From the NCBI RefSeq assembly GCF_021654335.1, contig NZ_AP023423.1, forward strand, positions 528,001-592,000: DNA of 64,000 nucleotides. The letters are read 5' to 3'. Shown piece after piece: positions 8,684 through 57,493 of the stretch. A model generated the notes under the pieces. The model was not told the DNA's origin. It saw only the letters and a program-made list of their open reading frames with translations, and made no database searches. The DNA comes from Sideroxyarcus emersonii. Its GTDB lineage: Bacteria; Pseudomonadota; Gammaproteobacteria; Burkholderiales; Gallionellaceae. Both the position numbers and the translations under genes were made by a program. Every line of letters begins with the position of its first letter. The first letter of the stretch is position 1.

Positions 8684-8717
8684 GTGCTGAATGAAATTTG
8701 CAGGCGATTAAACAGGT

Positions 8718-10358: not shown

Positions 10359-10454
10359 GGGGCGAAGGTGGCGGTAGTCGATGCGGGGATTATCCGGTAA
10401 CGCGGCGGTCGTTAAACTCGGAATAGCGGCAGTTTCCGGTTCTATTTGGCCCGG

Positions 10455-33382: not shown

Positions 33383-33420
33383 AAAATACAGCGGAAGACA
33401 AAAAAATACAGTGGAAGACA
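33383..33420 (+). repeat. Two 18 bp direct repeats, candidate TnsB sites at the left transposon end
   Basis: AAAATACAGCGGAAGACA (33383-33400) and AAAATACAGTGGAAGACA (33403-33420) differ by one base and are spaced 20 bp. This spacing resembles the adjacent TnsB-binding repeats of Tn7-like ends. A TGT at 33368-33370, preceded by CCATT, could be the terminal trinucleotide and target-site copy. I could not find the matching inverted repeats on the right side, so the assignment is tentative. Confidence 0.45.
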
Positions 33421-33502
33421 ATTGTCTCCCTTTGGCTGCCATGAAAACGCATAGCAATTGCATGATTTCATGGCGGGAAGTTGGACGAATGGGGGCGTTG
33501 CT

Positions 33503-34474
33503 ATGACTTCAAAACGCCCAATGTTGTCATTTGTGCCGCCTCTGTTACCAAACCAGACTATTTACTCTTGGGGATCAGTCTTCCATGAGATGTCAGGGAA
33601 TTCAACCGTCGACCAAACGCGCCTACAGCTGTTTGGTACGGCTAGAGGCAGATGGGATTTCCACATCCCATCACATCTGAACGAGTTGTGCTCGAGCACC
33701 CAGCTACGTTTAGGTACGCCTGAGATCATAGTTCGGGACGCAACCATAATCCCTTATTACACCCAGTTTCGTGACCCAAGCGTTGCAGCCAATGTTTTAG
33801 ATCAGGTCAGACGTAACAGCATCGGAGGACTGGCTAGGGATATTGGGATGACCAGGTCGGCATCCACCGCACATCCTCCAAGGCGTAGCTGCAATGAATG
33901 TGTTCTCGCCGACGAAGATAAATACGGGTTTGCTTACTGGAGGCGAGACCATCAATTGCCTGGGGTACTGGTATGTCAGACACATGGAAAGCCACTCTTG
34001 GAATTACCGTATGGCCGAGATTCAGTTCAAAGAGAAATATTCCTATGGCCAAACGATGACTGGAATTTAAGGGAAGCTCAGTTAATACTGAACTGGTCGG
34101 ATGCAACGCTGAATGCGTTGCAGCACCTCGCGCAACTTGCCGCAGACATGGCAGGAGGGCATTTGGACGGCGGGTATTCAATGCAGAAGATGAGGAACAC
34201 TTGCCTATCGGCCCTACAAGAACGAAATCTGATCGCGACTGATAGATCACTGGACCTTTCACATGCATTGCGAGACTACGGGGACCACTACGCCCCTCTC
34301 AAGGGACTCCCAGAATTTACCTCTTCCTTACAACGGTCAATTGAGCCCGTCCTATTCCTTCTAGGCGGCAACGAGCACCGTACACACCCCTTGGAGTGGA
34401 TGTTGATCATTGGTTGGCTGTTTGGAGATTGGGCGACATTTCGAAAGGCATATGAAAGATCAATAGATGCATGA
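33503..34474 (+). CDS. Second TniQ/TnsD-family protein (short, target-selector type)
   Basis: This 323-residue protein has a TniQ N-terminal domain: the start LSFVPPLLPNQTIYSWGSVFHEMSGNS and a zinc-binding set CNECVLADEDKYGFAYWRRDHQLPGVLVCQTH (CxxC...CxxH near residues 130-160). TniQ/TnsD proteins pick the target and recruit TnsC. It is shorter than the TnsD of the same element and reads in the opposite direction at the far end of the cargo. I chose ATG 33503 after a GGGGGCG stretch; ATG 33458 would add 15 residues. It may give a second target pathway, or be a remnant of another element. Confidence 0.78.
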   Translation: MTSKRPMLSFVPPLLPNQTIYSWGSVFHEMSGNSTVDQTRLQLFGTARGRWDFHIPSHLNELCSSTQLRLGTPEIIVRDATIIPYYTQFRDPSVAANVLDQVRRNSIGGLARDIGMTRSASTAHPPRRSCNECVLADEDKYGFAYWRRDHQLPGVLVCQTHGKPLLELPYGRDSVQREIFLWPNDDWNLREAQLILNWSDATLNALQHLAQLAADMAGGHLDGGYSMQKMRNTCLSALQERNLIATDRSLDLSHALRDYGDHYAPLKGLPEFTSSLQRSIEPVLFLLGGNEHRTHPLEWMLIIGWLFGDWATFRKAYERSIDA

Positions 34475-34514: not shown

Positions 34515-34955
34515 ATGAAAGCAGCTAAGAAAAAGAGCAGGAAGTTGGCCGCACTAGTATCGGCTTTGTCTAGTATTCCCAACATTTGGAGCGCAAGCTC
34601 TGTCCAATCTGAGCCTGAAAAATGGTTAAGCAGCTGGCAGATTTACAAAACAGTCGAAGCGAGAATCCAGCCAGAACTCTTCGGATATCACTTTGTTGGC
34701 TACGATATTCGTGGTGGTCATGGAGCAGTCTCTAGCAAGATTGATAAATTTGATCCGGTGACGATGTGCGGAGTTACGCGAAGCGGTCGTGTTTATCAGC
34801 TATTAGGCCTGCCTGGAGTAAATCCGGATGCCCAATATACGTTGGATGCCTGGATTCATAGGAACGAATTGGTCATGGAGGAAGCGACCGAAGAGTTCGT
34901 CCAGCATTACAAAATCGATTTGGAGCGATTGCGGAAAATCGCTCCTCAGCCTTAG
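34515..34955 (+). CDS. Hypothetical small basic protein of the transposon cargo
   Basis: I do not recognise this 146-residue protein. It starts with a Lys-rich stretch (MKAAKKKSRK) and has GYHFVGYDIRGGHGAVSSK in the middle and a charged helical end. It follows the second TniQ gene by 40 bp and has a good ribosome-binding site (AAGGAGATAGCCCC). The spacing suggests joint transcription with that TniQ protein, so a role in transposition or target choice is as likely as a defence role. Confidence 0.6.
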   Translation: MKAAKKKSRKLAALVSALSSIPNIWSASSVQSEPEKWLSSWQIYKTVEARIQPELFGYHFVGYDIRGGHGAVSSKIDKFDPVTMCGVTRSGRVYQLLGLPGVNPDAQYTLDAWIHRNELVMEEATEEFVQHYKIDLERLRKIAPQP

Positions 34956-35086: not shown

Positions 35087-38000
35087 ATGACAACCGATCT
35101 TCCAACTACTCCTGCTGCCGATGGGCAAGCTCAAGGCCATGTTGATGGCGGCCTAACCGCTGCTGCAAGTCCCGAACTAACCGGCGGAGCAGGATTCACT
35201 TTTGAAGATGGTGTGGCCGCCGTATACGCGGCGGCACTTCTTTCCGAGACCACCGCACCCGGACTCCCGGGCAGGCTGGTGAGGAGTTTGTCAGTTCAAC
35301 ATGGACCACTCGGCCATCCTCTTGATGACGTGATCGTCGAGGGCGAGGGAGCCGACGGAGTCTCAATACGTCTCAGCCTCCAAGTCAAGCGCTCCATCAC
35401 CATAAGTGCCGCAGCCACAAACACTGACTTCAGGGACACCGTGTTGCGCGCCCATGCGACCGCTACAGGTGCGGGATTTCACGTCCGGCTGGACCGGGTG
35501 GGAATAGCCACGGGCGAGATCTCCGAGGGCAGCAAGCGCGACTTCGAGACCCTATGCGAATGGGCACGGTCAGAGCATGACACTGCCCAGTTTAGGACGA
35601 AGCTCCACACCGATGGTGTTGCGGGGAAGAAGCAAACCTTCTTCGATGCCGTCCGGGGCATCCTTTCCACCAAGCTGCCCGAAGGCGAGCTCGACGCCGC
35701 CACCCATAGCCTGCTCTCCCATTTCGTCTTGATACGGTTCGACCTGATGCATGAAGGCTCGGTGACAGAACCGCAGACCGTCGCAAGCCTGGCGAATCAC
35801 CTTCAACCATCCGAGCGCTCTCGAGCGGACGACCTTTGGAGACGACTCCTCGCACTGGTTAGGGTAGCCGAGGGACACGCTGCTTCATTCGACAGGAAGA
35901 CCTTAGTCGCTCGCTTGAACGGAGCCTTCAGACTCGCAGGCGCTCCCTCCCTGAAGGAAGCTCTTGCCCGGATCGGGACCGAGGCGCGCCATGCCGCCAA
36001 CGAGATTCCGAACGACATCGGTGGCGTGAGCATCTCCCGTGGGCGTTTCGTCCAAAGCTCGCGCACGGCACTTACCCAGCATCGGTTCGTTCAGATAGGT
36101 GGACTGCCAGGAACCGGTAAATCGGTTGTGCTTCGGACCCTCGTCGAAGAGGCGCTCAAAGACGGACCCGTGCTCTTCCTCAAGGCCGACCGGTTGAATG
36201 GTGTGACATGGTCACAATACTCGACCAGTCAGGGTATCGGTCCCACCCCGTTGGGTGATCTCCTGGTCGAGCTTGCTTCGGTGGGGACTCCGGTCGTGTT
36301 CGTCGATGGTCTCGACCGAATTGATGCGCACCATCGCGGAATCCTCACGGACATCTTCAACACCATACTGGACTCGGATCTCCTCGCGAACTGGAAGGTG
36401 GTTGCCACCGTTAGGGATACGGGCATCGAACCAGTCCGGACTTGGCTGCCCCGCAAGCTTCTGGTCGTTGGTGCTGCCGTGATAGATGTGGCCGGGTTCG
36501 ACGACGACGAGGCCGCATCGTTGGCCCAAAGCAAACCCGCACTGAAGCCGCTTCTCTTCGGAACGGAGCAGGTCAGAGCCATCGTGCGCCGGCCGTTCTT
36601 TGCTGGAGTCCTGATCAGGCGACATCCGGCCGACACGAACGCCCCGAGTTCGGAGATAGAACTTGCCACAGCCTGGTGGACGGGTGGCGGGTATGGCGCA
36701 GACCCCACCCGTGCGGGACACCGTCGCATTGTGCTCGTCGAACTCGCCAGACGCGGAGCTCCAACACTGGGCAAACGTATCCAGATATTGGGAGTGGACC
36801 CTCAGGTGCTGGTTGAACTCGAAGCCGATGGAATCATCCGGCAAGTTAGAGCAGGACACACTGTCGACTTCGTACACGACATCTATTTTGAATGGTCATT
36901 TCTCCAGCTTCTGGTGTCCCAAGGTGGGCAATGGCTCGATGTTATCCGTCAGGTAGGCGAGCCCCCCATACTGGGGCGAACGGTCGAGCTGTTCTCTCAA
37001 AGCGAGCTCAAAGATGGAAACGACTGGCAAGGATTTCTGGAACGGCTTGAAAGCGCGACCGATGTCCGATCGCAGTGGTTGCGGGCATGGATGGTCGGTC
37101 CGTTCGGCCTGTCTTCGTTTCAGAACTACGAGCAAACGTATAACGCAGCGATGTTTGCCGAGGGGGCGAGAAGGGTTGCCAAGCTCGTCGTCTGGTTCCA
37201 GGCGGAAAAGACCAAGGCGAATCCGAACATATTGGGCAATGGAGCCCTTCCAGATCTCGGCCTGATCGAGCGCATCCGCCTTGCCGATTCCATGGCTTGG
37301 CCCTCAGACATGAGCACTTGGGCGCGCTTCAATTCTTGGCTGATACGATGGATCCACAATATTCCTACGTCGACTCTTCCCGACGTGGTGGCAGTTTTCG
37401 AGGTCTGGCAGAACGCATTCGCCGATCTGGTCAATCCGGTATCGAAGGAAATAGTTCGACTTGCCGGTTTGTGGCTTGCGGACATCGAGGCCCGTGAACA
37501 GGATGGCACTCAAGCAAATTCCCGCACCGGATGGGACCGGCTTAGGCATGGAGAGCTGGAGGAGCTGGGTGAACGATTGAGGGCGGTGATCCTGCGGGCG
37601 GGACGCGCCTACCGCACCCCCGTGCGCGAACACCTATCGCATTTAATGACGTTGGAATATCTGCCACGGCAGGCGGTTGAACAGGTGATGACATATGCCT
37701 TCATCATTAGTGAGGTTTGCCCAGACCAACTCGTCGACTTCATGTTGAGCATAATGATTCGTCCACTTCCAGAAGAGGTGGTGCGCCGTTCATCGGATTC
37801 ACCTTTCGGAATTGGGATCAGTAGCCATGACTGGCAATCCCTATCCATCGATGACCAGCACGGGTTTTTCCCCTGCGCCCCCACGCGGGAACCATTTCCC
37901 TCTCTGTTCGCACACGCCCCCGATGAGGCCAGACGCCTGGTGCGGGAAATCACCAACCATGCGATTACCGCCTGGCGTCAGCTTCACGTTTACGACTACG

Positions 38001-40426
38001 AGGAACGCGGAACACCGATTCCGCTGACGCTCGATTTCCCTTGGGGGCAGCAAACCTTCTGGGGTGGAGCGCAGCAATATGTCTGGTCACGCGGCACTTG
38101 GGGCTCGCACGCCGTCGGTTCGGGCCTGATGGCACTTGAGCTGTGGGCGTTGAAAGAAGTCGAAAATGGGCGTCCTGTAGACGATGTCATTCGCGATGTG
38201 CTGGAGGGGCACGAGAGCGTTGCGGCACTTGGGGTTGCCATCGCTGTCATGCTGGAGAGCAAGCACATCTCCGAGGTTACCCTGCCACTGCTCACGAGTC
38301 AGCGGTTATGGGATTGGGATATCCAGCGACATACATCTGATCTTGGCTTCAATGTAAATCTCATGGGTTTCCTACCGCATGACAGACGTCACTACCAGGC
38401 AGTAGTAGAAGGGAACGAGCGTCGGGGGCGTCGGATGGATGTGCGTGATCTTGCATCAATGTGCGTTATCGGTGGCGGCGACTTGGGAACCAGAACATCC
38501 GAAGCGATCATTAGATTCACCGACGACCTCCCATTCGGATATGCGGAACAACGGGAGAACCCCGAAACTGTACGGCAACTTCGGAGAACGGCAGAAATCT
38601 GGGCCGAAGTGGGTAGACGCACAAACTACCGTGCGACACCAACCGAGAACGGTGATGGTTTGATCATCCAGCTGGACAACCCGGTAGCCCAAGGCCCCGA
38701 TATCGATGCCATCAACCAACGACAAGCAGAGATGGCGGAGCACCTCCCCCTGCTCAATTGGGCAAATGCCACCTTTCAGAATGGCGTGCTAAACAATGCA
38801 TTGACGCTCGAACAGGCGGTCGAACGTGCTCGAAGACTGGATTCTGCGGACCTGTTTGAAGAGGCGTTCGAACACGTCAGTCCCGGACACGAACGACAGG
38901 CCGCCGTATCCTGTGTTGCCGCCGTTGCGCTCCGTTATGGACGGGCCCTCCCGCTTGCCGATCTGGATTGGTCCACAGATGTATGCCTAAGGGCTTGGAG
39001 AACGCGGGAGGTTCGTGACGACATGTTCTTCAGCGGCTCCATCCTGCTCAACCATCCCACGCTCTTCGCGACTTACGGACTTGCTGCGATGGACAATCAT
39101 GACCCTACACGGCGTGACGCTCTGGAAGCGCTGATACAACTAGCTGGTCATCCATACGAACAGATAATGGTCGAGGCACTGGCGGGATTATTGGCTCTGT
39201 GGGGGCTATGTCCCGAAGTAGCTTGGCTCGCTCTCGAACTTGCGGCATCCCTGTCAATCTTCGAGCGTCCGTCATATGACACTCCAAGAGAACAGATCGA
39301 AGAACAAATTCAACGCGGAATCTGGGAGAAGGTAGCCACGGCCCTTTCCCGACTCGACGCTCTGGATGAACCGCCCCACCCACTGCCCGGAATGCCTCCG
39401 GCATGGGTGCCCGCTACCAACGGACGAAGAATCGCACGTGGTCGTCGCGGCAGGGAGGTGATAATCGAGTGGGAGCATCCGTCGACTGACGTTCATACTC
39501 AGTTTCTCGCAAAAGTCTTGACTAAAATCCCCGCAGATTCTGCGATGGGGGACGTTCCGCGGCGCGACCAGTTCCTTACGTGGTGTGACGGACTCGTCGG
39601 CTGGACTATCGAACGAATTCATCCTTCGTGGGCGCGGCAGGAAGGCGGGCAGGATTTCGAGGCCGCGTCTTCCGAACACTACGAATGGCGGCGCGATCTC
39701 TTTCGATTCTTTGCTCGGGTGTCGCTGCACCTCGATCCCGACGAAAGCGCCCGTCGTTTTGTGGAACCTGCGGCGGGAACCAATGACGACACCTTCGGTT
39801 CGCTCATGTCATCGTATGTTTCATACATTACGCATACCATAATGGATGAGCCGGTATTCCCGACAAACCTGATAGTCCTTTTGGAAAAGATCGTTCCGAG
39901 AGTACTGGCACATAGAAGGTGGGAACAATCAAGATGGAATGACGGGGAGATACACGATTCCGACCTATACAGCATGATTCGGGCACTGTTCTTTATTGAT
40001 GTTGAAAGGGCGATGGGTGCCGCGCGTTTTGCGAACGGCGATTGGACCGATGTTACGAACATCAATTCGGTCATAGACCCCATCCTCGCGGCCCAAGGTC
40101 AGAATCCGACGGTGATCTCATCCTATCTGACCTTATGCGAGCGCGCCTATCAGGCTTATCCACTGGAACTGTTCGTTGCCAAGCTCCCTATGGTACTCGG
40201 CGGAGGCGGTGGAATGCCGCTCGGTTGGCGGGGAACAACCGTCCCTGCACGGCTTGCGGGAATTATTCAACTGTTCTCTGAAAAGGTCCATCCGCTATCT
40301 GAAGAAATGGCAAGGGCGCTACTGCGAGCGCTGGACGCCCTCGTGGATATGGGTGACCGGAGGGCAGCTGCGATTCAAACCAGCGAAGCCTTCAAGGACG
40401 TTCGAACTGTCACAGTGGTTGTTTAG
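35087..40426 (+). CDS. Giant STAND NTPase with N-terminal PD-(D/E)XK (Cap4/DUF4297-like) nuclease domain
   Basis: This 1779-residue protein has three parts. Residues about 35-200 contain FTFEDGVAAVYAAALL, then PLDDVIVE with Asp80 and SLQVKRS with Gln99 and Lys101. This is the D-x(n)-(E/Q)xK signature of Cap4/DUF4297-like DNA nucleases. Residues about 330-480 form a P-loop domain with Walker A GGLPGTGKS (338-346) and Walker B VVFVDGLDRI (Asp407), as in NACHT/STAND proteins. The remaining about 1200 residues are helical and Trp-rich, the place of a sensor. The domain order nuclease-STAND-sensor matches Avs-type phage sensors. It is followed 14 bp later by a caspase-like protease. I find no ankyrin, WD40 or TPR repeat by eye. 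Confidence 0.75.
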   Translation: MTTDLPTTPAADGQAQGHVDGGLTAAASPELTGGAGFTFEDGVAAVYAAALLSETTAPGLPGRLVRSLSVQHGPLGHPLDDVIVEGEGADGVSIRLSLQVKRSITISAAATNTDFRDTVLRAHATATGAGFHVRLDRVGIATGEISEGSKRDFETLCEWARSEHDTAQFRTKLHTDGVAGKKQTFFDAVRGILSTKLPEGELDAATHSLLSHFVLIRFDLMHEGSVTEPQTVASLANHLQPSERSRADDLWRRLLALVRVAEGHAASFDRKTLVARLNGAFRLAGAPSLKEALARIGTEARHAANEIPNDIGGVSISRGRFVQSSRTALTQHRFVQIGGLPGTGKSVVLRTLVEEALKDGPVLFLKADRLNGVTWSQYSTSQGIGPTPLGDLLVELASVGTPVVFVDGLDRIDAHHRGILTDIFNTILDSDLLANWKVVATVRDTGIEPVRTWLPRKLLVVGAAVIDVAGFDDDEAASLAQSKPALKPLLFGTEQVRAIVRRPFFAGVLIRRHPADTNAPSSEIELATAWWTGGGYGADPTRAGHRRIVLVELARRGAPTLGKRIQILGVDPQVLVELEADGIIRQVRAGHTVDFVHDIYFEWSFLQLLVSQGGQWLDVIRQVGEPPILGRTVELFSQSELKDGNDWQGFLERLESATDVRSQWLRAWMVGPFGLSSFQNYEQTYNAAMFAEGARRVAKLVVWFQAEKTKANPNILGNGALPDLGLIERIRLADSMAWPSDMSTWARFNSWLIRWIHNIPTSTLPDVVAVFEVWQNAFADLVNPVSKEIVRLAGLWLADIEAREQDGTQANSRTGWDRLRHGELEELGERLRAVILRAGRAYRTPVREHLSHLMTLEYLPRQAVEQVMTYAFIISEVCPDQLVDFMLSIMIRPLPEEVVRRSSDSPFGIGISSHDWQSLSIDDQHGFFPCAPTREPFPSLFAHAPDEARRLVREITNHAITAWRQLHVYDYEERGTPIPLTLDFPWGQQTFWGGAQQYVWSRGTWGSHAVGSGLMALELWALKEVENGRPVDDVIRDVLEGHESVAALGVAIAVMLESKHISEVTLPLLTSQRLWDWDIQRHTSDLGFNVNLMGFLPHDRRHYQAVVEGNERRGRRMDVRDLASMCVIGGGDLGTRTSEAIIRFTDDLPFGYAEQRENPETVRQLRRTAEIWAEVGRRTNYRATPTENGDGLIIQLDNPVAQGPDIDAINQRQAEMAEHLPLLNWANATFQNGVLNNALTLEQAVERARRLDSADLFEEAFEHVSPGHERQAAVSCVAAVALRYGRALPLADLDWSTDVCLRAWRTREVRDDMFFSGSILLNHPTLFATYGLAAMDNHDPTRRDALEALIQLAGHPYEQIMVEALAGLLALWGLCPEVAWLALELAASLSIFERPSYDTPREQIEEQIQRGIWEKVATALSRLDALDEPPHPLPGMPPAWVPATNGRRIARGRRGREVIIEWEHPSTDVHTQFLAKVLTKIPADSAMGDVPRRDQFLTWCDGLVGWTIERIHPSWARQEGGQDFEAASSEHYEWRRDLFRFFARVSLHLDPDESARRFVEPAAGTNDDTFGSLMSSYVSYITHTIMDEPVFPTNLIVLLEKIVPRVLAHRRWEQSRWNDGEIHDSDLYSMIRALFFIDVERAMGAARFANGDWTDVTNINSVIDPILAAQGQNPTVISSYLTLCERAYQAYPLELFVAKLPMVLGGGGGMPLGWRGTTVPARLAGIIQLFSEKVHPLSEEMARALLRALDALVDMGDRRAAAIQTSEAFKDVRTVTVVV

Positions 40427-40440
40427 GGACGAAATAGACT

Positions 40441-42000
40441 ATGGTTACAAGAAAGAAATCAGTTGCACCGTCGAATACCCCGCCTGTGCAATTGCCTGAC
40501 GGTGCTCGAGTCATTGCCTTTGTCGTTGGAATAGAGCACTACCAAAAGCGCGGCGGACCGACGTTGCCTAGTGTGGATTTTGCGCACAACGATGCTAACG
40601 AGTTCGCCGACGCGATAAGTGGAATTTACCAAGGAGATCAGCTCGATATTGTCGTGAACTTGGACAGTGATGCGACACTTGGAAATCTCCAATACGGTCT
40701 AAAGCAAGCAATTCAGTCTTTGGGGGCAGATGACCTTTTCATTTTTTACTATGCAGGCCATGGTTTTCATGACTCGCAGGGAAACCGCATCACAGCATGG
40801 GATACTCATGCTGGGGGACTCGATGGAACCACTCTCTCGTTGCGCGAAATTCTTATCGATCCGTTAGGGCGAAGCCCTTGTCAGAGAGCTCTGATTTTCA
40901 TTGACGCGTGCGCAACAAAACTCAACAACAGTATCCATGCTCGCGATGTACTAACGGCGTTTGATAAAAACGAACTCAAGATGTTCCTGAATTCGGCTAC
41001 CTATTGCGCCACATTTCTTTCATGTGAACCTGGCCAGAAGTCCTATCCATCTAATGAGCATCAGCACGGGCTATGGACGTACTTCTTGCTCAAGGCTTTG
41101 CGGGGCGAATCCGAAGAGGCGTTGGGTCACAATCGTCACCTCACCGATATTAGCCTGAGGGATTATTTACAGGTTGCTGTCCGTAATTATGTGACAAAAT
41201 CTATGACGGTAAGTGAGGTGCAAAAGCCGTGCGCATTAATCAACGCAAGTAATACGTTTTCAATCCGATACATTCCAGAACCAACCATCACCGTTAGTGA
41301 CGCAAGCGATCTAACTGCAATTCGATTGGTCGCCAAGAAAGAATATCTTGAGTCAGTCAAGACAGGCAGTATTAAATCGCTGCCTGGTTTTAATAGAAAA
41401 ACCCATTTTGTTCCCACATATAAGAGTGAGAGTGCTACTACATTCATACGAACACTGATAGGGGATCAAATCGATGAAGAGATTCAGAATTATTATCAGT
41501 CGATAAAATCAGAGCTCGGATTGCGACATAAAGAAGTTGACCAGTCTTGTGGTGATGGTGAAGGTAGTATTGACACCGACTATTTTCGATTTTCAGTGGA
41601 GGTACACCAGCATAGCGAAGACTTTGCCGACTACGAACTTGTTCGACGTTTGATTTTGCGGAATGGATGGGAAGCCAAATCCAAAGAAATTGACCTTATC
41701 TTCGGCAAGATGTTTGAGCTTGTTGTCATAGAAGTCAAACCTGACGCCAACGACTACGACGAATTGGTCGACATGTTTGAGAATTTGGAAGAACAGCATG
41801 GAGGGACGCTGGAGGATGATGAGCCAAATACACGGATTACCTATATCTCCCAAGATGGGGTGCGGATTTTTATTGACCTATTTCAAGGGAGACTTACTCT
41901 AGGAACAGGTGGCAAGATGTTAATTACCGAGCTAATAGGAAAAGCCCGGGGCTATCGATTTGGGCTTGGCGGCAAATCTCAGCTATTGCTGACATCATAG
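40441..42000 (+). CDS. Caspase-like (peptidase C14) protease paired with the STAND protein
   Basis: This 519-residue protein opens with a caspase fold: RVIAFVVGIEHYQ, then FAHNDANEFADAI, then DDLFIFYYAGHGFHD with His107, then ALIFIDACATKL with Cys157, the two catalytic residues. Residues about 290-519 are a second part that I do not recognise, Asp/Glu-rich and predicted mixed alpha/beta. It lies 14 bp after the STAND gene in the same direction, so the two proteins are almost certainly made together. Bacterial caspase-like proteases act in several abortive anti-phage systems by cleaving partner or effector proteins. Whether it is triggered by the STAND protein is an inference. Confidence 0.78.
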   Translation: MVTRKKSVAPSNTPPVQLPDGARVIAFVVGIEHYQKRGGPTLPSVDFAHNDANEFADAISGIYQGDQLDIVVNLDSDATLGNLQYGLKQAIQSLGADDLFIFYYAGHGFHDSQGNRITAWDTHAGGLDGTTLSLREILIDPLGRSPCQRALIFIDACATKLNNSIHARDVLTAFDKNELKMFLNSATYCATFLSCEPGQKSYPSNEHQHGLWTYFLLKALRGESEEALGHNRHLTDISLRDYLQVAVRNYVTKSMTVSEVQKPCALINASNTFSIRYIPEPTITVSDASDLTAIRLVAKKEYLESVKTGSIKSLPGFNRKTHFVPTYKSESATTFIRTLIGDQIDEEIQNYYQSIKSELGLRHKEVDQSCGDGEGSIDTDYFRFSVEVHQHSEDFADYELVRRLILRNGWEAKSKEIDLIFGKMFELVVIEVKPDANDYDELVDMFENLEEQHGGTLEDDEPNTRITYISQDGVRIFIDLFQGRLTLGTGGKMLITELIGKARGYRFGLGGKSQLLLTS

Positions 42001-42283: not shown

Positions 42284-43411
42284 TTAGGCTCTAATCCTGC
42301 TTTCCCGGATTACTTCGAATTTGGACATTTCTTCATAACTGTCCGTTGAATGTAGAAATCCCATATTCTTATCATGTGACTCATCGATTGAATTCAGAAA
42401 CAAGTCAATGTTTTCGGTTTGAGTCGTGTTCAATTTGCAGAAATCGGATTGGATTTTATCCCTGGTGCTAGTGTTTAAGTAGCTGTGCAATTTCCCAACA
42501 ACCCCAACCAATATATCTGACAACTGGGTAAACTGGTTTGACTGTGAGTTAACAAATGAATAGTTTCTAATTTCTTGCGAACCATCCAAAATTTTGTATT
42601 CGGCCAACGATTCCGCTATAGAGTTTTCGTTATCGAAAATATGTGTAGAGTTTTTGAAAATACAAATTGGGCGCAAATAGAATTGAGAAAAGTCTCTTAT
42701 TAGAACAAAGTCCTCCTCACCCGTAACAAATGGCAGAGAGCCTTTATTCTTTGCTTCTTTTAATATCTGCCTGAGCGACTCAAGGCCCAAATGAAATTCC
42801 ATGTCATCGAGATAGTCGACAAACAGATTGCTTATTGATTCGATAAACGGCAAGACCTCATCTTGCTTGATGTTTGGGTATCCAAATCTGCGGAATAGCG
42901 AAATCATCGAATCAATTTCAATTTTTGACAGCTTATACAAATCATTCTTTAGCATGTTCGCAAATGGAGGTCCCAATTGTTGGCTTATCTCAGAATGCGA
43001 GATTGCTGAGTCAACAATATCTACAATCGACCAATAAAGGATATTTATACTTGAGTAGTGGACGTACAAATCGTTACTGCCGATGAATCTGAAGAAGGAT
43101 GTAAGTCTTTGCGACTTCATACAATCGAGAAAGTCCCCTTTAGCAATATGCTTGAACTTAACCTCTTTGACGGAGTCTTGTAGATTGAAACTATCAATTA
43201 GGGATTGAACATCTGGCGCAGTTCCTTCATGTACTAGCCCACCTAACACAAAGTTATCTGTGAACGCGGAATTAAAATCAAACTCTCTTACGTGAAATTT
43301 CCTTATGTTGTTCGTTTCATCATAGTAAAACGTATATGCGCCATCAAAGTTGGCCAAAGGTGCGGACCTCTTTGTGTATTTACGGATATCACCTATATCG
43401 AAAGTTTTCAT
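42284..43411 (-). CDS. DUF3800-like protein (predicted RNase H fold)
   Basis: This 375-residue protein has the DUF3800 pattern: an early acidic motif YTFYYDETNN (Asp31-Glu32), a middle helical region, and the C-terminal QLSDILVGVVGKLH motif with a conserved Asp. DUF3800 proteins are common in defence and mobile islands and are predicted to have an RNase H-like fold. The gene is clearly AT-richer than its neighbours, with many AAA, ATT and TTT codons, so it has a different origin. It is convergent with the caspase gene. The start at 43411 (MKTFDIG) is preferred; ATGs up to 43456 would add 15 residues. Confidence 0.62.
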   Translation of the reverse strand: MKTFDIGDIRKYTKRSAPLANFDGAYTFYYDETNNIRKFHVREFDFNSAFTDNFVLGGLVHEGTAPDVQSLIDSFNLQDSVKEVKFKHIAKGDFLDCMKSQRLTSFFRFIGSNDLYVHYSSINILYWSIVDIVDSAISHSEISQQLGPPFANMLKNDLYKLSKIEIDSMISLFRRFGYPNIKQDEVLPFIESISNLFVDYLDDMEFHLGLESLRQILKEAKNKGSLPFVTGEEDFVLIRDFSQFYLRPICIFKNSTHIFDNENSIAESLAEYKILDGSQEIRNYSFVNSQSNQFTQLSDILVGVVGKLHSYLNTSTRDKIQSDFCKLNTTQTENIDLFLNSIDESHDKNMGFLHSTDSYEEMSKFEVIRESRIRA

Positions 43412-43528
43412 TAGTCCAATTCGCTTCCCTATATTGCATAACATTCTGTGTGGCAACGGCGCTCGCTTGGCCGAATTGTAAAAGATATCTATCGATCTTC
43501 GAAGGATGTTAGATCAGACAGTTAAGTC

Positions 43529-45334
43529 CTAGCCAACTAGACGTCCTCCACGGGTAGAGTTCCGCCCTGGCTTGAGAAATTCCAGTTCTCGTGCGGGTCC
43601 AGCCCAATCCTTGGAAATTTGATACTCCATAAGAATTTCCATGATCGTGCCGGGGCTGAAGATGCGAGTTGGCGTTACAAACGAGAAGTATTGAAGCACC
43701 AGAAGGCCCTGATGGTGTTCGATTCCAGAAGCACCTAGCACGCTACGCTCTGACGCACCGACTGCTCCTGCACACAACTTCGCCCAAAGCATTCGCCTTG
43801 CATAGAAATGCCAGTCGGACTCCTTGAGAAGTTCTAACTGCTGCCGTGCCAACGGATATCTTGCTGGATCCGGCATGTTCGTGCGACTCCAACCCGCTTC
43901 GCGCATCAGGAAGTTGCGGGTGATTTTCTTTGGCATGTCGGTTGAGTTGTATAGAACAACTGCAGTGCTGGCGAAATTCCGTGCCCACCGCAAGTCATCG
44001 GGATGTTGCGTCACTATCAACGACGCAGGCTTTATACCATCCTTTGAATTTCTGTTATCAAGAATGGCTTTTAGCCAGACAAACCCGTCATCGTTGTCCC
44101 GCAGCAGCTTCTTCATCAAACTGGAGTATGTTTTCCACAGATCATCCATAGCCCAATTCGGGTGCTGGCGGAGAATTTCCTCGATTCGAGTACGGGAGGT
44201 TTTGCGCTCTGACGCAAATTCATGGGATGACTCTTGGGCTTCGATACGTGGAATAGCCGCCGAGCCAATATCTTGTGTCGCAGGTATGGCGATGGTCTCG
44301 ATTGCAGTGGCTGGCGCTGGCTGCTGCGGAGAAGGTTTCGTGGCAAACTCCCAGAATGCTGCCGCACTACCAAAAAGAAATTGGGATAGAGCCAAGTGCC
44401 GTGGCAGTGGGGCATCGAAAACGGTAGATTCTCCCGCAAGACGGAACCAATGTTGGTTCTTATTGAGGCGATAAGCTGAATCAATGCGACCTAACGTTTC
44501 TTTCCCAAAGTGTTTTTCAAGAGCCTCAACAATCTCCTTACGATTGATCGTGGATCCTCTCGAAAATCCCAACTCAACCAACCGAGCCTTATAGGCGGAC
44601 GCCAGTGTTGCGGCATCCAGAGGCACCGTGGGTGCAAGCAACATGTCTCGGGCGAATTGGGCATAACGCAACTCTGAAGCGCTTGCATCATGAACCGGTG
44701 TATAAAAGACGCCTTCGGTGAGGCTTAGCCCGCAACCTTCACAAGGCACCCATGGCGCAAGAATGAATTCATTCTTGCGCTCGAACGGACAGCCACAATT
44801 GGGACAACTCGAGAGCAGTCGGGCTTCGTGGCGCCAGCAGACCTGAACCCCCGGGATCTGGTGTGCCCTGTGAATGTAAGGCTGTTCCCATTCATCCGCG
44901 TCGCATCGCAGGCAATCGACACATAGATGTGTCTCTCCGCTTTCTCCAACGATCCTTTTGGGCATGTTGATGATTTGGTTTGCGATGGGTATCGCGTCAC
45001 CAGAAAGACTGAGACGCGCATTGCCGTACACTTCAAATAGAGGGAAGAGTGTCGTATCCCTTAGCAACCTCTCGACATTCTGGGTAGCATCTCCTGGAAG
45101 CTTGGCCGCGAATCGTTCGAGATATTTTGGAATCCAGTGTGTCAGACGGAATGGCGCCGAATCGTAGAGCTGTTGAAAGCTGACTCGGGTGGATAGATTG
45201 CCACTGTCATGGTGATATCTGGATACCTGCGAAATATGCAGTTCGTCTGGCAGAATCAGAGGGTAAAGAGATATCTGGCTTCCGTTCGTTTTCCCGGCAG
45301 ATTTTGTATCAATTTGTCGTTCGTTCAATGCCAC
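43529..45334 (-). CDS. tnsD: Tn7-like target selector TnsD
   Basis: This 601-residue protein has the TniQ N-terminal domain and several zinc-binding pairs: CVDCLRC (138-144), CWRH (166-169), CPNC (177-180) and CEGC (198-201). A long C-terminal part fits the DNA-recognition region of TnsD. In Tn7, TnsD binds a fixed chromosomal site and recruits TnsC. It is last in tnsA-B-C-D, separated from tnsC by 153 bp containing a strong hairpin. The target cannot be read from the sequence; glmS is not in this window. Confidence 0.85.
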   Translation of the reverse strand: MALNERQIDTKSAGKTNGSQISLYPLILPDELHISQVSRYHHDSGNLSTRVSFQQLYDSAPFRLTHWIPKYLERFAAKLPGDATQNVERLLRDTTLFPLFEVYGNARLSLSGDAIPIANQIINMPKRIVGESGETHLCVDCLRCDADEWEQPYIHRAHQIPGVQVCWRHEARLLSSCPNCGCPFERKNEFILAPWVPCEGCGLSLTEGVFYTPVHDASASELRYAQFARDMLLAPTVPLDAATLASAYKARLVELGFSRGSTINRKEIVEALEKHFGKETLGRIDSAYRLNKNQHWFRLAGESTVFDAPLPRHLALSQFLFGSAAAFWEFATKPSPQQPAPATAIETIAIPATQDIGSAAIPRIEAQESSHEFASERKTSRTRIEEILRQHPNWAMDDLWKTYSSLMKKLLRDNDDGFVWLKAILDNRNSKDGIKPASLIVTQHPDDLRWARNFASTAVVLYNSTDMPKKITRNFLMREAGWSRTNMPDPARYPLARQQLELLKESDWHFYARRMLWAKLCAGAVGASERSVLGASGIEHHQGLLVLQYFSFVTPTRIFSPGTIMEILMEYQISKDWAGPARELEFLKPGRNSTRGGRLVG

Positions 45335-45487: not shown

Positions 45488-46948
45488 TCATCCTTCCATC
45501 AATCCGGCTCGTCTCGCGAGTTCCCGGAGATCTGCATTGGAGCCGATTTTTTTTAGCAGTTCAGCCGTAGCTTGCGCTGCATCGTTCTGCTTTTTGAGTT
45601 CCGGACTGGGGGCCTGGGCGGAAGCATTTTCAGCAGCCTTATGATTGGCCGCCAAAAGACGCTCAATACGTTCGGCCAGAAGTTCGCTGTTGTCTGGTCG
45701 AAGCAATGCATCCAATTGCTCCTTTGGAGGAAGCAGGTCCTCGAACTTCTCCAGACGGTTCTTTTTCCCGGAACGCAATGCAGCAAGGGCTTGGTGCATG
45801 GGAATGAACTGTCGGTCATAGACGTCCTTCAGAACCTTGCTGTCGACCGTATCTAGGTTGTGGCGGATTGCATAAACTTGGGCAGCGCGATGCAGGGCAA
45901 TGAAGATCGCCATGATGCCCTGGGATAGATTGAATATCTGTTTACGCAGTTCATCCGTCAGCGGGGCTGGTTTCTTCACCCACTGAAATTTCTTCCAGAC
46001 CACTTCTACGACCAGTTTGTCCCACACTACATCATCGAACCTGGATGGCAGCGCCAGATCGAAATACCCGCCGCTGCATACACGGCGCGCATTGCGGGCG
46101 ACCTTGGAAAACAGCCTGACAGCGGCATAGGTTCCGCTGAAAACGATGGGTACTTTACATACGTTGGCGATCTTGAGAAAGAAGCTCAAGGCGAGCTCAG
46201 CCTCATGGTCGCCTCGCAGCAACAGGCACTGAATTTCGTCGACGAACAGTACACCCAGATGGTGGGTGGCGAACACTTGCGCCAGATTGCCAATCATCGT
46301 GTCGCGGGTCCGCGTGCCCTTGTCATATTGCTGCCGGTAATCTGTACCTAGTGCGTCATCGACAGCTCCAAACATGGACAGGATCAACCCCCTGAGGCTG
46401 GCATCGAAGCTTGCGTTGACGCCGATCCAAACCAATTGCTTGACGGCAAACGACTCACCCTTGTAGTCGGTGTGGATGATAACTTGCGAATACATCTCCA
46501 GCAGAGATTCAATGAGGGTAGTCTTGCCATTTCCGCTCACTGCTGTAGTCATGATTGCAGGCACGCTTTTGGACCTCACTTGATACTCCTCAAGTGGTTC
46601 GCTCATGGTCTTCTTGATCTTGCAGTGCAGACGACGCCACTCGCGGTTGAAAGGGTTCCGTGCGGCATAGCCACGACGGATCAGAACCGAAAGGGCGACT
46701 TCGACGTCGAATGCAAGCGGCAGAGGAATGACCAGGTCCTCGATGGCGGAAACGCAATGAATACGCTCGTGTGGCGGAAGAGCTAGTTCGAGTGCGGTGC
46801 CAACATCTGGTATGTAACGCAGTTCCTTCGTTACATAATCTTCGCTGAAGATATTGGGGAGGGCCTCGATCAAGGGATTACCGGCATAGGCGGCTGGTGC
46901 AGCAATCGAATGATACTCGGCCGTGATTTGTTTAAGTGGTTTAGTCAT
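45488..46948 (-). CDS. tnsC: Tn7-like AAA+ regulator TnsC
   Basis: This 486-residue ATPase has Walker A SGNGKTT (138-144) and Walker B LGVLFVDEIQ with Asp237-Glu238. HCVSAIEDL and the region after residue 240 fit the TniB/TnsC family. TnsC links the target selector to the TnsAB transposase and checks for target immunity. The first 8 bp overlap tnsB, so the genes are translated together. The length is near that of Tn7 TnsC (555) but shorter at the C-terminus. Confidence 0.92.
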   Translation of the reverse strand: MTKPLKQITAEYHSIAAPAAYAGNPLIEALPNIFSEDYVTKELRYIPDVGTALELALPPHERIHCVSAIEDLVIPLPLAFDVEVALSVLIRRGYAARNPFNREWRRLHCKIKKTMSEPLEEYQVRSKSVPAIMTTAVSGNGKTTLIESLLEMYSQVIIHTDYKGESFAVKQLVWIGVNASFDASLRGLILSMFGAVDDALGTDYRQQYDKGTRTRDTMIGNLAQVFATHHLGVLFVDEIQCLLLRGDHEAELALSFFLKIANVCKVPIVFSGTYAAVRLFSKVARNARRVCSGGYFDLALPSRFDDVVWDKLVVEVVWKKFQWVKKPAPLTDELRKQIFNLSQGIMAIFIALHRAAQVYAIRHNLDTVDSKVLKDVYDRQFIPMHQALAALRSGKKNRLEKFEDLLPPKEQLDALLRPDNSELLAERIERLLAANHKAAENASAQAPSPELKKQNDAAQATAELLKKIGSNADLRELARRAGLMEG

Positions 46949-49250
46949 GATCGATCAACTCCTCAGTTTGAGCCAAGAGCTTGGATAGCAGGTCGGGCGG
47001 TGCGTCGGAACCGTCTGAATCTTCGGCAACGACATACTCATCGACATCCCGGCGATTGCGTTGGACAGCTTCCCTTACGCGTTCCACCTCTGCCTCGAAT
47101 GCTCGTTTGTCCTTGATGTCAGACAGGTGCTCGGCCTTCGATGCGGGAGGAATTGCCTGATCTCGTGCTTCGGCGGCCTTTTTGATCTCCTCGTCCCGGA
47201 AGCGATTGTGGGCAACCCGGTCCAGAAGGCGAATGTCAGCGTCGTCTTCCCGTACCAAATCTCGGTACACCATGCAGTCAAAAATCTCCTCCAGGCGGGC
47301 ATGTTCCGGAATTTTTGAGGGAACGGTTACTGTAAGGGTTTCGTAATTCCCGGTCGTGTCATTCAGGCAAAAGATGCGGCGCGGATCATTGGGGTGGTAT
47401 TTGATCTTGAGTTTCTTGTTGCCAAACGTCCGGACAAACTCTTGCCATTGTTGCTTGTCCACCATGTGGCCCCTGTAGGCGTGCCCGGCAAAGTGCACAC
47501 CAGCTTCTCGAACAGATACGTTGGCGCTGGGAAGCAGGGCGGTGTATAGGGTGTCCTGATCCCACTGGGGTGGAGACCCGTGAAGATTGTCGAGGCCATA
47601 GTTCCACAGGTTGATTGGCGTTGCCTTGATTTCCAGTCCACTCAAGGGACCGACTAGGCGATCACTAACATCAGTAGTTTTGTTGAACGTGAGAATGGCG
47701 TGAACCAGGATGCGGGTAAAGCGGTGAAGGGTGAGGGTAGCGTCCAGCCTGCAATCCCTTTGGCCACGTTCACGTGCCCGGGAGAGCACTGCACCCGGCA
47801 TCCACTTCACGGTCAGATCGCGAAGCCAGTGAAACAGGGTCTCGATCGGTCCCTTTTTGTCAGGGCGGAATGGAGGGCAGGGACTCAGGTTTAACCTGAG
47901 GTCATGGGCGCTGTCAGTGCTGGGAATCGAAAGTTGCTCGCCGCGATCATGTACGATGTCCAAACATCCATGAGCGCATGGCCAGTCTGAATCGGTCATT
48001 TTAAATCCCAATGATCTCAGGAACTCTCCCTTGGGAGAAAAGGCATTGAACAGTGCCAGTCGTGCCGTGTGCCAACTGGGGCCTTCAAGCGCGACATGTA
48101 CGCCGACTATCATTCCGCTCCAGACGTCCCTCACCAGATAGACAACAGGTCTGCCGATAATCCAAAAGGGGTTGAACGAGCTGACGAGGTACACATCCGC
48201 CACTGTGGAGTCGATCATGTAGGCCTGCGCAGGGCCGAACAACCTGTCAAACGCCTTGCCTAGAATGGCACGCTTGGTCTGCTCCCAAGTGATAGCTGGA
48301 ATCATCTGCTTGAGCAGTTCCACCGGGGTGTATTTTTTTTTTACGTAATAGCGAAACGTTTCAAGGGACGGACGCTTCTCAAGTAACGTTTTGCTGGGCT
48401 CATAGACTCCTTGTTCGTTCTCACACCAGCCGTCCGTGAAGTGATCCTCGATCATTTTGTGATAGGCGTGTTCATACTTGCCGAGGCTGCCACCGTACAG
48501 GTCCCATGCCAGCCAGATTAGTGCCCTATCATCCGGACCTGTATTCACTCCGATTCGTTCTGGCGCGTGGCCTGTCTTGATGCGTTTTGGAGTCCTGCCG
48601 CGCTTCCTCAGACCCGGATTGCGGTATTTCCCCGGGGCACCACAATTTGCATTGTCCGAGATTAACGCTGACTCTTTGCACTCATAGAGCCAGAGCCGAT
48701 AGACGATTTGGTAGACCGTATAACGCGTTAGCTTTTTCTGATCCTGCGATAGTGTCTTATTGTGGTGCTCCACGGTCCGCGCGACATAGCGCCCCAACTC
48801 GCCACTCTCGAATATGCGGATGAGATCCTTTTCATGCAGGAAGTCGTCAGTGAATCCCTTGCGGCGTCCCTTAACCTTCTTTTCGGCGGCGGAAAGCTCA
48901 TGTTCTTTCTTGTTCAGGCGCTTCGGAACGAAAGCGCGCGTTTTGACGATCAGGCGTTTGCTGAACACATCCTCAAGAACTGAGAGGCTGACACGTGTAG
49001 GACGGTGAAGCTTTAGCTTCACACGCTTGTTGCCGGTGCTGACTTCGGATTCCGGCAATCGATCAGGAAATCTCAGGACAAATGCACAATCGCTGACGCG
49101 ATTGGCCCAGACGATTCTGTATAGGCCGGGATCGATTGGTAGCTCAGTGGGTTTGATGACGTTGATGACATTATGACGGCCAAGTCTTTCCGTCATCGTA
49201 GTCGGTTGGAAATGATTTCCGTCCCTGAAGAATTTGTCATTTGCATTCAT
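46941..49250 (-). CDS. tnsB: Tn7-like DDE transposase TnsB
   Basis: This 769-residue transposase has an RNase H-type catalytic core with MIDSTVADVY (Asp347), DIVHDRGEQL (Asp435) and KKGPIETLFHW (Glu470). Upstream domains (residues about 130-330) are basic and would bind the transposon ends. TnsB cuts and joins the 3' strands. It overlaps tnsA by 4 bp and tnsC by 8 bp. The size is close to Tn7 TnsB (702). Confidence 0.93.
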   Translation of the reverse strand: MNANDKFFRDGNHFQPTTMTERLGRHNVINVIKPTELPIDPGLYRIVWANRVSDCAFVLRFPDRLPESEVSTGNKRVKLKLHRPTRVSLSVLEDVFSKRLIVKTRAFVPKRLNKKEHELSAAEKKVKGRRKGFTDDFLHEKDLIRIFESGELGRYVARTVEHHNKTLSQDQKKLTRYTVYQIVYRLWLYECKESALISDNANCGAPGKYRNPGLRKRGRTPKRIKTGHAPERIGVNTGPDDRALIWLAWDLYGGSLGKYEHAYHKMIEDHFTDGWCENEQGVYEPSKTLLEKRPSLETFRYYVKKKYTPVELLKQMIPAITWEQTKRAILGKAFDRLFGPAQAYMIDSTVADVYLVSSFNPFWIIGRPVVYLVRDVWSGMIVGVHVALEGPSWHTARLALFNAFSPKGEFLRSLGFKMTDSDWPCAHGCLDIVHDRGEQLSIPSTDSAHDLRLNLSPCPPFRPDKKGPIETLFHWLRDLTVKWMPGAVLSRARERGQRDCRLDATLTLHRFTRILVHAILTFNKTTDVSDRLVGPLSGLEIKATPINLWNYGLDNLHGSPPQWDQDTLYTALLPSANVSVREAGVHFAGHAYRGHMVDKQQWQEFVRTFGNKKLKIKYHPNDPRRIFCLNDTTGNYETLTVTVPSKIPEHARLEEIFDCMVYRDLVREDDADIRLLDRVAHNRFRDEEIKKAAEARDQAIPPASKAEHLSDIKDKRAFEAEVERVREAVQRNRRDVDEYVVAEDSDGSDAPPDLLSKLLAQTEELIDHD

Positions 49251-50221
49251 GGCAGCCTCCTTAATTTATTCAGAATGGACCAACTTGGGATGCTCATGGG
49301 CGAGCGTGTTTCACCATGAGGGAATGGCAACTGGAGATGTACTGGACGTGTGAGGTCCACAGGAATCAAGCCGCGCATGATCCCGAACTTCAGAAGTCGA
49401 ACAGCGGTGTGAAAATCAATTTCCATGGCGTGGCTGACCATTTCGACTTGCTCGATGCAGCGACCACGCCAAGGAGCGGCTTTCCATGCAGACAGGAACT
49501 TGTTCAGTAACTCAACATCACGTTCAGAGAAGCGCTGGATAGCGCCGCTCAAGGCCCACTCCAGGTTGAGATACACCTGCTGATTGACCATTCGGTCGGT
49601 CGCCAGGAGCCAGGGAATGCCAAGGGACGTCCAGTACGCTCTTTCCAGCCTGAGAATCCGGAATATCTTTTTACGCCGTCGGACGCGCTTTTCCTTGGAA
49701 GGCTCCCTATTGGGATCCCCTCGCATGTCTTTCCAGTACTTGATCGAAACCGCGACAAGGAAAGGAGCCTTACGCGGAAGTTCAACTGTCAGCACCTGAT
49801 CTGTCGAATAAATGAACGGCACTTTAAGGCCCACGTATTTCGCATGGCGAAACTTCAACTCCTGCGCAATGGCCACCGTGCCAGGGCTGTCCAGCCAAAG
49901 ATCATGAGATGCGGCCGTCTTAGAATCCAGGATTTCCAGCATCGGATGGGGATGGGTGGCCGTCCACAGTGGATAGTTCTCGCGAATATCCGTGATGCAG
50001 GGCTGAGCCATATTTGGGACGCAATGGGCTCGCTCTAGGTTGGACACCAGGTGATGTTGCCGATTGATGAAGGGGTCAAACAGGATGTGGGACTGTCCGT
50101 GGGACGAATAGTCTTGTTTGGTGACTTGGATCCACGAGCGGTAATTCTTGCCAATGCCCTGGCCACGGCCATCCTTGAGCCAATTGACCAAGCGTGTTTC
50201 TGTAATCGCAGCGCGATGCAT
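49247..50221 (-). CDS. tnsA: Tn7-like endonuclease TnsA
   Basis: This 324-residue protein has the TnsA nuclease motifs CITDIRENYPLW (Glu81), STDQVLTVEL (Asp141) and VSIKYW (Lys161), matching E63, D114 and K132 of Tn7 TnsA. It cuts the 5' strands, so the element should move by cut-and-paste. I take ATG 50221 as start because GGAGGGAGAT stands directly upstream; an earlier ATG at 50356 would add 45 residues without family support. Confidence 0.92.
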   Translation of the reverse strand: MHRAAITETRLVNWLKDGRGQGIGKNYRSWIQVTKQDYSSHGQSHILFDPFINRQHHLVSNLERAHCVPNMAQPCITDIRENYPLWTATHPHPMLEILDSKTAASHDLWLDSPGTVAIAQELKFRHAKYVGLKVPFIYSTDQVLTVELPRKAPFLVAVSIKYWKDMRGDPNREPSKEKRVRRRKKIFRILRLERAYWTSLGIPWLLATDRMVNQQVYLNLEWALSGAIQRFSERDVELLNKFLSAWKAAPWRGRCIEQVEMVSHAMEIDFHTAVRLLKFGIMRGLIPVDLTRPVHLQLPFPHGETRSPMSIPSWSILNKLRRLP

Positions 50222-50523
50222 ATCTCCCTCCGAAGTGTTTAGCTCCAACGAACATGCGGATATCCGGGTGCCGGCAAATTGCTGGCGCGGAATTGGCGCA
50301 TCCGCGATGTTCATGGGGTCTGGATTAGGGACAGGAGTCCCCTTGACCTCGGGCACAAAGAGAGAGATACTTTTAATGTCCTTTCAGTATGTCGTCCTGT
50401 TAGCGCAGGGCGTCTCTCGAGTGACCAAGGCCGTAGCCATGAAAATGGGTGCGGCTTTTGTTTTTAGTCCATGATGTTTTCCTTTCTAGGCAATTGGCGG
50501 GTGGCAATGGATCGCAGCGCTAT

Positions 50524-50901
50524 TCAGCTAACGACCTCCCGAATTGTTGTTCGCAATCCCTTGATGAACCTTGCGGGCAATTGGTTTGCATGAAGCCTGA
50601 TGTCACGTATGAGCGCCTGTATATCTGGAGATAACTCTGATTCTCCGTAGACAAGCCCCCTCAAGACTGAAGACTGTTGTAAGAGCTCATATGCTTCAGT
50701 CTCACAAAACTCAAGCGCAGAGAGGATCTTTTCCATTCTGCTGGTAGGAGGTGGCGTACCCCGTCCGTTTTCGATTTCGCAGTAATAGCTGACCGAAATC
50801 CCGGACTTTGTCGCAATTTCGGCTAGTGTCTTATCGAGTTCAAGGCGACGGCGCTTAAGCCGTTGACTCAAGGCTATCTGGATTTCTGTTTGATTGGCCA
50901 C
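50524..50901 (-). CDS. XRE-family transcriptional regulator
   Basis: This 125-residue protein has an N-terminal Cro/CI-type helix-turn-helix (ALSQRLKRRRLELDKTLAEIATKSGISVSYYCEIENGRG, residues 10-48), followed by a helical dimerisation part. It is encoded 303 bp upstream of the tnsA start in the same direction and divergent from the next gene with 156 bp between starts. It is a good candidate for control of the tns operon or of the divergent gene. It may mark the right part of the transposon. Confidence 0.85.
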   Translation of the reverse strand: MANQTEIQIALSQRLKRRRLELDKTLAEIATKSGISVSYYCEIENGRGTPPPTSRMEKILSALEFCETEAYELLQQSSVLRGLVYGESELSPDIQALIRDIRLHANQLPARFIKGLRTTIREVVS

Positions 50902-51057
50902 GACAGTTCCTTTTTCTGTTGAAAATGCATTCCGTCGCCAGCATAGTTCGGTTCTTTGGGGTACGGTAGGAAGTATCTGGGCAATTTGGGCGAGGGATAT
51001 TTCCGAAGTGAGTGTCGGCTCTATTGGATACGGATTAAAGAAGCAGGAGGGCTACAG

Positions 51058-52194: not shown

Positions 52195-52197
52195 ATG

Positions 52198-52257
52198 GTG
52201 AGCAATAAAAAATGCTCACTTCAAAGCCCGCCTGAGTAGACTGAGGTCGCTTTTTTT
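52198..52257 (+). terminator. Two hairpins ending the unknown gene
   Basis: GTGAGCA (52198-52204) pairs with TGCTCAC (52213-52219) just after the stop codon. A second bulged stem between about 52224 and 52250 (centre CCTGAGT-AG-ACTGAGG) is followed directly by seven T residues, so the second one looks like the real Rho-independent terminator. From there to 52445 I see no gene, only three copies of TGCAGTT or its complement. Confidence 0.7.
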
Positions 52258-52445
52258 ATTTAGTCTTGGGGAGCATCGTCCCCGACTGCCTTTGGCAAAG
52301 GAATAACGGATAGCCCCCTCGTCCATATAAAAGAGGACCCACCTGGTTGCAGTTGGTTATCTTTACCGTTTTTAATAGAGACGTTGAGTCTGAACTGCAA
52401 GTGGCGGAGCGGCTTCGGAGAGGGTATGCAGTTTTGACTTCGGCT

Positions 52446-52931: not shown

Positions 52932-52942
52932 GATTCACCCCT

Positions 52943-53383: not shown

Positions 53384-53430
53384 ACATTCCTCTTTCGATA
53401 ATATACATTATATATAGTAGATATATTATA

Positions 53431-53468
53431 CTTACCACTTAAGCATGGGAACTTGAATTGCGTCTTTG
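53431..53468 (+). repeat. Copy 1 of a short diverged repeat
   Basis: CTTACCACTTAAGCATG, 9 bases, then ATTGCGTCTTTG. A related copy lies at 61119-61158 with 2 and 1 mismatches in these two blocks. It stands in the region between marR and the HlyD gene. Confidence 0.6.
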
Positions 53469-53649
53469 TCGTGGTGGTACTCTTTGTCTTGTCGGGAAGG
53501 CTACCGACCGGTTGAGAGGTGTTGGAGGTGATGTAGTTAGTCGCAGGGTGATTTAGCGCAGCTTGAGGATGTAAATAGGAGCGACTTGCCTAGCGCGTCG
53601 ACGGTAACAAGCTGCAATTTGACTACTTTTCTATAGAGCACGCACGGCC

Positions 53650-57491: not shown

Positions 57492-57493
57492 GC

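Follow-up and report, generated by a model that had tools for sequence, protein, structure and literature searches.

A distant Avs4 relative and a caspase-family protease encoded side by side among Tn7-like transposon genes of Sideroxyarcus emersonii

Caspases and STAND ATPases have been described as components of the same conflict systems (accessible part of PMC7159879), and the locus considered here raises the question whether two adjacent genes, one for a STAND protein with a nuclease domain and the other for a caspase-family protease, form a single defence system. Both genes lie on the + strand of a stretch of 64,000 nucleotides from Sideroxyarcus emersonii (NZ_AP023423.1, positions 528,001 to 592,000), henceforth called the window, to whose first letter all coordinates refer. 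The initial annotation reported a 1779-aa STAND protein and a 519-aa caspase encoded 14 bp apart, and the reading frames agree exactly: the STAND gene (35087..40426) comes first and its stop codon is 14 bp from the start of the caspase gene (40441..42000). The flanking transposon genes, the relationship to Avs4 and the unequal base composition of the two genes go beyond that annotation. We propose that the pair consists of an Avs4-like nuclease sensor and a captured mobile paracaspase, which likely provides it with a second output.

The two proteins

Judged by profile and by model, the STAND protein is a distant relative of Avs4 and not a protein of an unknown class, though it scores far under the curated Avs4 cut-off. 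Its structure was modelled and its alignment (56 sequences: the protein itself and 55 relatives) was made for residues 1–1200 only. The best fold match of this model, whose mean predicted local distance difference test score (pLDDT) is 86.3, is the solved, portal-bound structure of Avs4 (PDB 8dgf), and Avs4 is also the best profile match. The initial annotation held that membership of a named Avs or defence family that includes this protease would count against its proposal of a new system; a relationship to Avs4 was indeed found, yet a distant one, with 51 bits against the curated cut-off of 1500 (NCBIfam NF041815). The family is well populated, as is that of the caspase: the relatives of the STAND protein number at least 610 at E <= 1e-3 among the candidates searched, the best 120 of which were listed.

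The N-terminal region (residues 36–282; 35192..35932, + strand) is predicted to be a PD-(D/E)XK nuclease domain of the HamA/Cap4/DUF4297/LmuA type: it gives a fold match to HamA/Cap4-type nucleases and contains the core fold with a D...QxK active site. In the model D80 is placed in strand 79–87, Q99 and K101 in strand 93–103, and these are followed by helix 113–127 and strand 137–144, which is the usual order of elements in PD-(D/E)XK nucleases. The adjacent STAND nucleoside triphosphatase (NTPase) core (residues 290–611; 35954..36919, + strand) has a predicted NACHT-like fold, a Walker A motif (338–346), acidic residues of the Walker B type (D407/D410) and a conserved H597, while no Pfam NTPase model scored over its cut-off in a scan of this protein. 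The active site D80/Q99/K101 and the P-loop pointed out in the initial annotation are borne out by the alignment, in which D80, D81, Q99 and K101 as well as G339, P341, G342, G344, K345, S346, D407 and D410 are invariant. The remaining part (residues 612–1779; 36920..40423, + strand) is mostly helical and represents the presumed sensor; its residues 922–1235 align with residues 777–1101 of Avs4. As to the PADLOC profiles, DUF626_VIII matches all 19 family members scanned, and the match of PDC-M54A (36.9 bits) is confined to residues 34–609 instead of extending over the whole length. One STAND relative (L135, 6986-16984) has close behind it another frame, which encodes 1593 aa and is annotated as hypothetical.

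The caspase belongs to the caspase superfamily (Peptidase C14), as indicated by a Pfam Peptidase_C14 match over the cut-off (E 1.4e-12), the His/Cys dyad and the predicted caspase fold, for which MALT1 paracaspase is the closest solved structure. The domain spans residues 16–279 (40486..41277, + strand). Its catalytic H107 and C157, described as intact in the initial annotation, proved invariant in 95 aligned sequences, its own included. It also bears the acidic residues D51 and D155, which we take to have equivalents in the S1 pocket of MALT1. Behind C157, in a loop of low confidence (pLDDT < 50 at 166–169 and 171–173), lies R168 (40942..40944, + strand), a conserved arginine and a candidate self-cleavage site: in the same alignment R occupies this position in 19/19 and 16/16 members of two groups of relatives versus 4/63 of the other caspases. 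The EACC1-associated caspase profile NF047832 gave 47 bits against a cut-off of 140. Caspase relatives amount to at least 137 at E <= 1e-3 among the candidates searched, with the best 120 listed.

The C-terminal domain of the caspase (residues 284–519; 41290..41997, + strand) has no Pfam match over the cut-off, and the structure matches listed for the model cover residues 9–279, reaching residue 282 at most. When this region was searched alone, all four matches were to proteins that carry Peptidase_C14. We also considered a second nuclease here, on the basis of a D...ExK-like stretch (~418–430) and a weak UPF0102 match (16.2 bits, cut-off 23.6), and rejected it, because relatives do not conserve the ExK.

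Recurrence of the pair and other contexts of the caspase

Do the two genes occur together elsewhere? A genome scan from the caspase side found 311 stretches, the best 80 of which were kept and gave 78 loci, with flanks fetched up to 10 kb or less where contigs end. Within these flanks a STAND protein of the same family was found near the caspase in one (L033) of the 19 loci in which the caspase is the main domain. A search of 24 whole genomes with caspase relatives (E limit 1e-20) identified such a STAND protein in one, again that of L033. This locus (402-10746) comes from a gammaproteobacterial metagenome-assembled genome, and there the caspase lies ~3.2 kb upstream of a distant STAND relative, on the same strand and with other frames between them. 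STAND matches occur in 5/399 genomes of the order and 2/369 of the class (own genome in both counts), 5/298 genomes in the genus of G401 and 8/398 in the family of G422.

From the STAND side we collected 28 loci (18 foreign genome loci, 6 of the 25 plasmid records with a match and 4 viral contigs), none of which contains the caspase; in four (L080, L082, L114, L129) the contig breaks off at the downstream side of the STAND gene or shortly after it, which leaves 24 informative on that side. L080 and L081 seem to be the same sequence recorded twice. The initial annotation had suggested looking for a conserved neighbour pair, and the outcome, STAND in 1/24 caspase genomes and caspase in 0/28 STAND loci, speaks against one.

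One further adjacent pair likely exists. Proteins P0013 (67% identity to STAND) and P0124 (77% to the caspase) are each encoded on a contig of 7572 bp. No other contig size is common to the 120 STAND and 120 caspase matches listed, which makes this a strong though indirect indication. No such coincidence with any listed caspase was observed for P0004–P0012 (67–89% to STAND), some of which lie on short contigs, and the cluster of P0123 would conceal any caspase >90% identical. Neither protein was found in phage records by tblastn, and a pattern scan of viral contigs revealed no caspase relative. Among plasmids, 25 records have a STAND match and 10 a caspase match, with no accession in common among the matches listed, and plasmid DNA gave no match to window positions 38000-42000. 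In summary, the pair is not broadly conserved.

Without the STAND gene, caspase relatives keep diverse company. We checked ten neighbouring proteins from seven such loci and found Gabija GajA and GajB in three (L003, L008, L091), a UvrD/GajB-like protein in L006, PDC-S49 in L009 and a type IV restriction-like match in L005; the neighbour in L014 had no match in the same check. No partner is common to most caspase loci (genes within 7 kb, 21 loci, own included). The most widespread group of true neighbours is present in seven loci, and its four checked members are GajB/UvrD-like (L003, L006, L008, L091); a neighbour group of eight loci was dismissed as a partner, as its members are frames read antisense to the caspase gene.

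In 16 loci (L019-L026, L028-L032, L034, L036, L037) the caspase domain forms the end of a longer protein. The N-terminal ~1150 residues of these proteins were identified by PADLOC as TmtA, presumably the Tiamat protein, in all three cases checked. Fifteen of the 16 (L019 counted) match the N-terminal part of L019; the sixteenth, L020, is on a 4.6-kb contig. Tiamat is listed among systems of unknown mechanisms (accessible part of PMC10482375), and our literature search returned no paper joining 'Tiamat', 'caspase' and 'defense system'. It is possible that the caspase domain is the effector of the TmtA system, and given that listing, the mechanism of TmtA also becomes testable through the conserved R168 and the Cys/His dyad.

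One system or two neighbours

The reading towards which we lean, with less than even confidence, is that the STAND protein senses a phage protein and cuts DNA, and that the recruited caspase acts as a second killing enzyme. The reading frames, their order, the invariant residues, the Avs4 profile match and the transposon genes on which it draws come from sequence, and both folds from models. The two proteins would be made from one transcript. A phage protein, likely the portal, would bind the C-terminal sensor, whereupon the STAND protein would assemble and its nuclease would be turned on. The caspase, crowded on this assembly, could then be switched on by a self-cut at R168, since its S1 pocket should carry D51 and D155 and prefer Arg or Lys. 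The active caspase would cleave host or phage proteins, and infected cells would die. We regard the caspase as a likely mobile module, joined to a sensor that elsewhere works without it, and the fusion of its subfamily to the end of TmtA-like proteins supports its role as an output.

Several observations weigh against such cooperation. As many as 23/24 genomes with caspase relatives lack a STAND protein of this kind, and 28/28 STAND-side loci (4 without downstream sequence) lack such a caspase, hence each gene can occur without the other. The GC content at third codon positions (GC3) is 0.608 in the STAND gene versus 0.454 in the caspase gene, which argues for their separate origins; elsewhere in the window it is 0.437 in the DUF3800 gene, 0.52–0.62 in tniQ1 and tnsABC, and 0.57–0.85 in 12 flanking frames. 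We saw no fusion or gating insertion that would link the two proteins, and the disordered tail of the STAND protein (residues 1–45) has no Lys or Arg for a protease of this kind. Finally, the relationship to Avs4 that suggests the portal as a trigger is a distant one, and the model covers residues 1–1200.

The absence of the partner in most loci and the difference in GC3 both favour the view that the window contains two independent defence genes as transposon cargo, namely an Avs4-like nuclease sensor that forms a single-gene system and a caspase that is complete in itself, its C-terminal domain doing the sensing. We rank this explanation as the chief rival, nearly as likely as the joint system. 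It accords with the finding that the C-terminal domain of the caspase was met only together with a caspase (4/4 matches) and could be its own sensor, and that caspase relatives without STAND reside in islands with other systems; it sits less well with the common strand, the gap of 14 bp and the single instance in which the pair apparently recurs (67%/77% identity).

The protease could also stand upstream of the nuclease, activating it by cleavage as trypsin does in AVAST or CanA on CanC in canu, which we consider improbable. This mechanism is published for other pairs (accessible part of PMC12799240), and a low-confidence loop of the STAND protein (808–813) contains R813. The loop is variable, however, and activation of the nuclease by the caspase is made less likely by the lack of any visible gating insertion or cleavable tail. 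Besides, the STAND relatives, nearly all without a known caspase neighbour, are of similar length and have the same invariant active site, and the gated nucleases in the accessible part of PMC12799240 are of the metallo-beta-lactamase fold, whereas the one described here matches HamA/Cap4. Least probable of all, to the point that we would hardly expect it, is a caspase that serves as a safety valve, either by cleaving and shutting off the STAND protein or by removing cells in which it misfires: the adjacent downstream position lends this idea general support, yet a subfamily fused to the end of TmtA-like proteins is easier to reconcile with an output than with a brake.

The joint reading can be extended to a bolder and rather doubtful proposal, in which one STAND assembly, triggered by phage, would fire both the fused nuclease and the recruited paracaspase simultaneously, as a bacterial counterpart of the apoptosome or inflammasome that destroys DNA and proteins alike, and the paracaspase would come from a mobile subfamily that can serve unrelated sensors (Avs4-like STAND, Tiamat) and is turned on by a self-cut at its conserved arginine. 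If the pair is one system, bacterial caspases would be exchangeable outputs that STAND sensors add to an existing nuclease, and the locus would be a clear-cut place to test by what means a sensor activates a caspase to which it is not fused. Should the genes be independent, they still document how two defence-type genes that differ in composition have come together between genes of a Tn7-like transposon.

The transposon setting and known systems

Downstream of the pair, on the opposite strand, lie genes for a DUF3800 protein (42284..43456; a full-length match to the PADLOC candidate PDC-S51, 442 bits), TniQ/TnsD (43529..45334; profile matches), a TnsC/TniB-type ATPase (45488..46948; TniB over the cut-off), a TnsB-like transposase with a Mu C-terminal domain (46941..49250; Mu-transpos_C 20.4 of 21.7 bits) and a TnsA-like endonuclease (49247..50356; TnsA 23.0 of 26.5 bits). 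With tnsA, tnsB, tnsC and tniQ together the gene set is that of a Tn7-like transposon, the tnsA and tnsB matches being under their Pfam cut-offs. On the other side of the pair, beside rpoH, is a second tniQ (33458..34474, + strand). The DUF3800 gene has the lowest GC content (38%) among the window genes measured, and the cargo was probably assembled out of different sources. Between the second tniQ and the STAND gene there is a 146-aa frame (34515-34955) with no Pfam, PADLOC or NCBIfam match, for which tblastn in the fetched loci returned only the window's own copy. Beyond tnsA, a 412-aa frame (50956-52194) has no Pfam match, and the region 50357-58600 shows only short, weak DNA matches in three genomes of the same genus.

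Two exact 17-bp direct repeats, AATACAGYGGAAGACAA, 20 bp apart beside rpoH (33385..33421, + strand), are candidate binding sites at the transposon end. Matches with <=3 mismatches number three in the window, a count reached by 0/100 shuffles. The repeat stretch is kept at 98% over 62 bp in one genome of the genus; DNA similarity of two such genomes stops just upstream of rpoH (33309, 33326), and in a third, part of the second tniQ (225/338 residues, 78%) is retained with the same end repeats. Comparison of the two flanks yielded no convincing inverted pair, and the candidate repeats occur at one end only. In a locus of the genus (L148, 11099-12064) ~1 kb with a partial tniQ is framed by two copies of the repeat on one side and an inverted copy on the opposite side, an arrangement that resembles a mini-element. 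A distant STAND relative (L116, 5926-12981) has a weak TniQ match (28%) ~1.4 kb away, which perhaps indicates another Tn7-like cargo. The words 'caspase', 'Avs' and 'NTPase' are absent from the main text of a survey of Tn7-like cargo whose title names defence systems (PMC8649781).

Our literature searches, to which subscription journals were mostly closed and which are no proof of absence, yielded, among the hits listed, no description of an Avs4-like STAND protein with an adjacent caspase. The initial claim of an undescribed system thus holds in part: no named system was found to join an Avs-type nuclease STAND with a caspase, but the evidence does not support a conserved two-gene system. A protease and a nuclease in one immune locus are known from trypsin-AVAST and the canu caspase-nuclease loci (accessible part of PMC12799240). 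The trypsin-nuclease AVAST (Avs1 type, EpiAvs) likewise combines a STAND sensor with protease and nuclease at a single locus; according to the same part of that paper, its trypsin is fused to the defence protein and its nuclease is a separate pro-enzyme of the metallo-beta-lactamase fold, whereas in the present pair it is the nuclease that is fused, with the protease encoded separately. Canu (KaeCanABC) resembles our pair in having a MALT1-like caspase beside a nuclease gene and near transposases, and differs in that STAND is not mentioned for it in the accessible text; in the Pfam scan of the 17 proteins in and around the pair, no nuclease of the metallo-beta-lactamase fold was identified. 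Canu also includes CanB and an Ig-like domain behind the caspase domain, a position that in our caspase lies beyond the listed structure matches (residues 9–279). The CARD-NLR systems such as LypABC (accessible part of PMC13236601) share an NLR-like ATPase and peptidases in one locus, but their LypA peptidase is trypsin-like and has a CARD-like domain, and Pfam detected no such domain in this pair. The TmtA-caspase proteins possess a caspase of the same subfamily, with R168 and C195, but at the end of a TmtA-like protein and in loci without a STAND of this family. Closest is Avs4 (AVAST type 4), which shares the STAND NTPase, the large helical sensor and the N-terminal nuclease. The nuclease of known Avs4 proteins is Mrr-like, whereas that of the S. 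emersonii protein is nearest to HamA/Cap4/DUF4297, and its gene is followed by a caspase gene.
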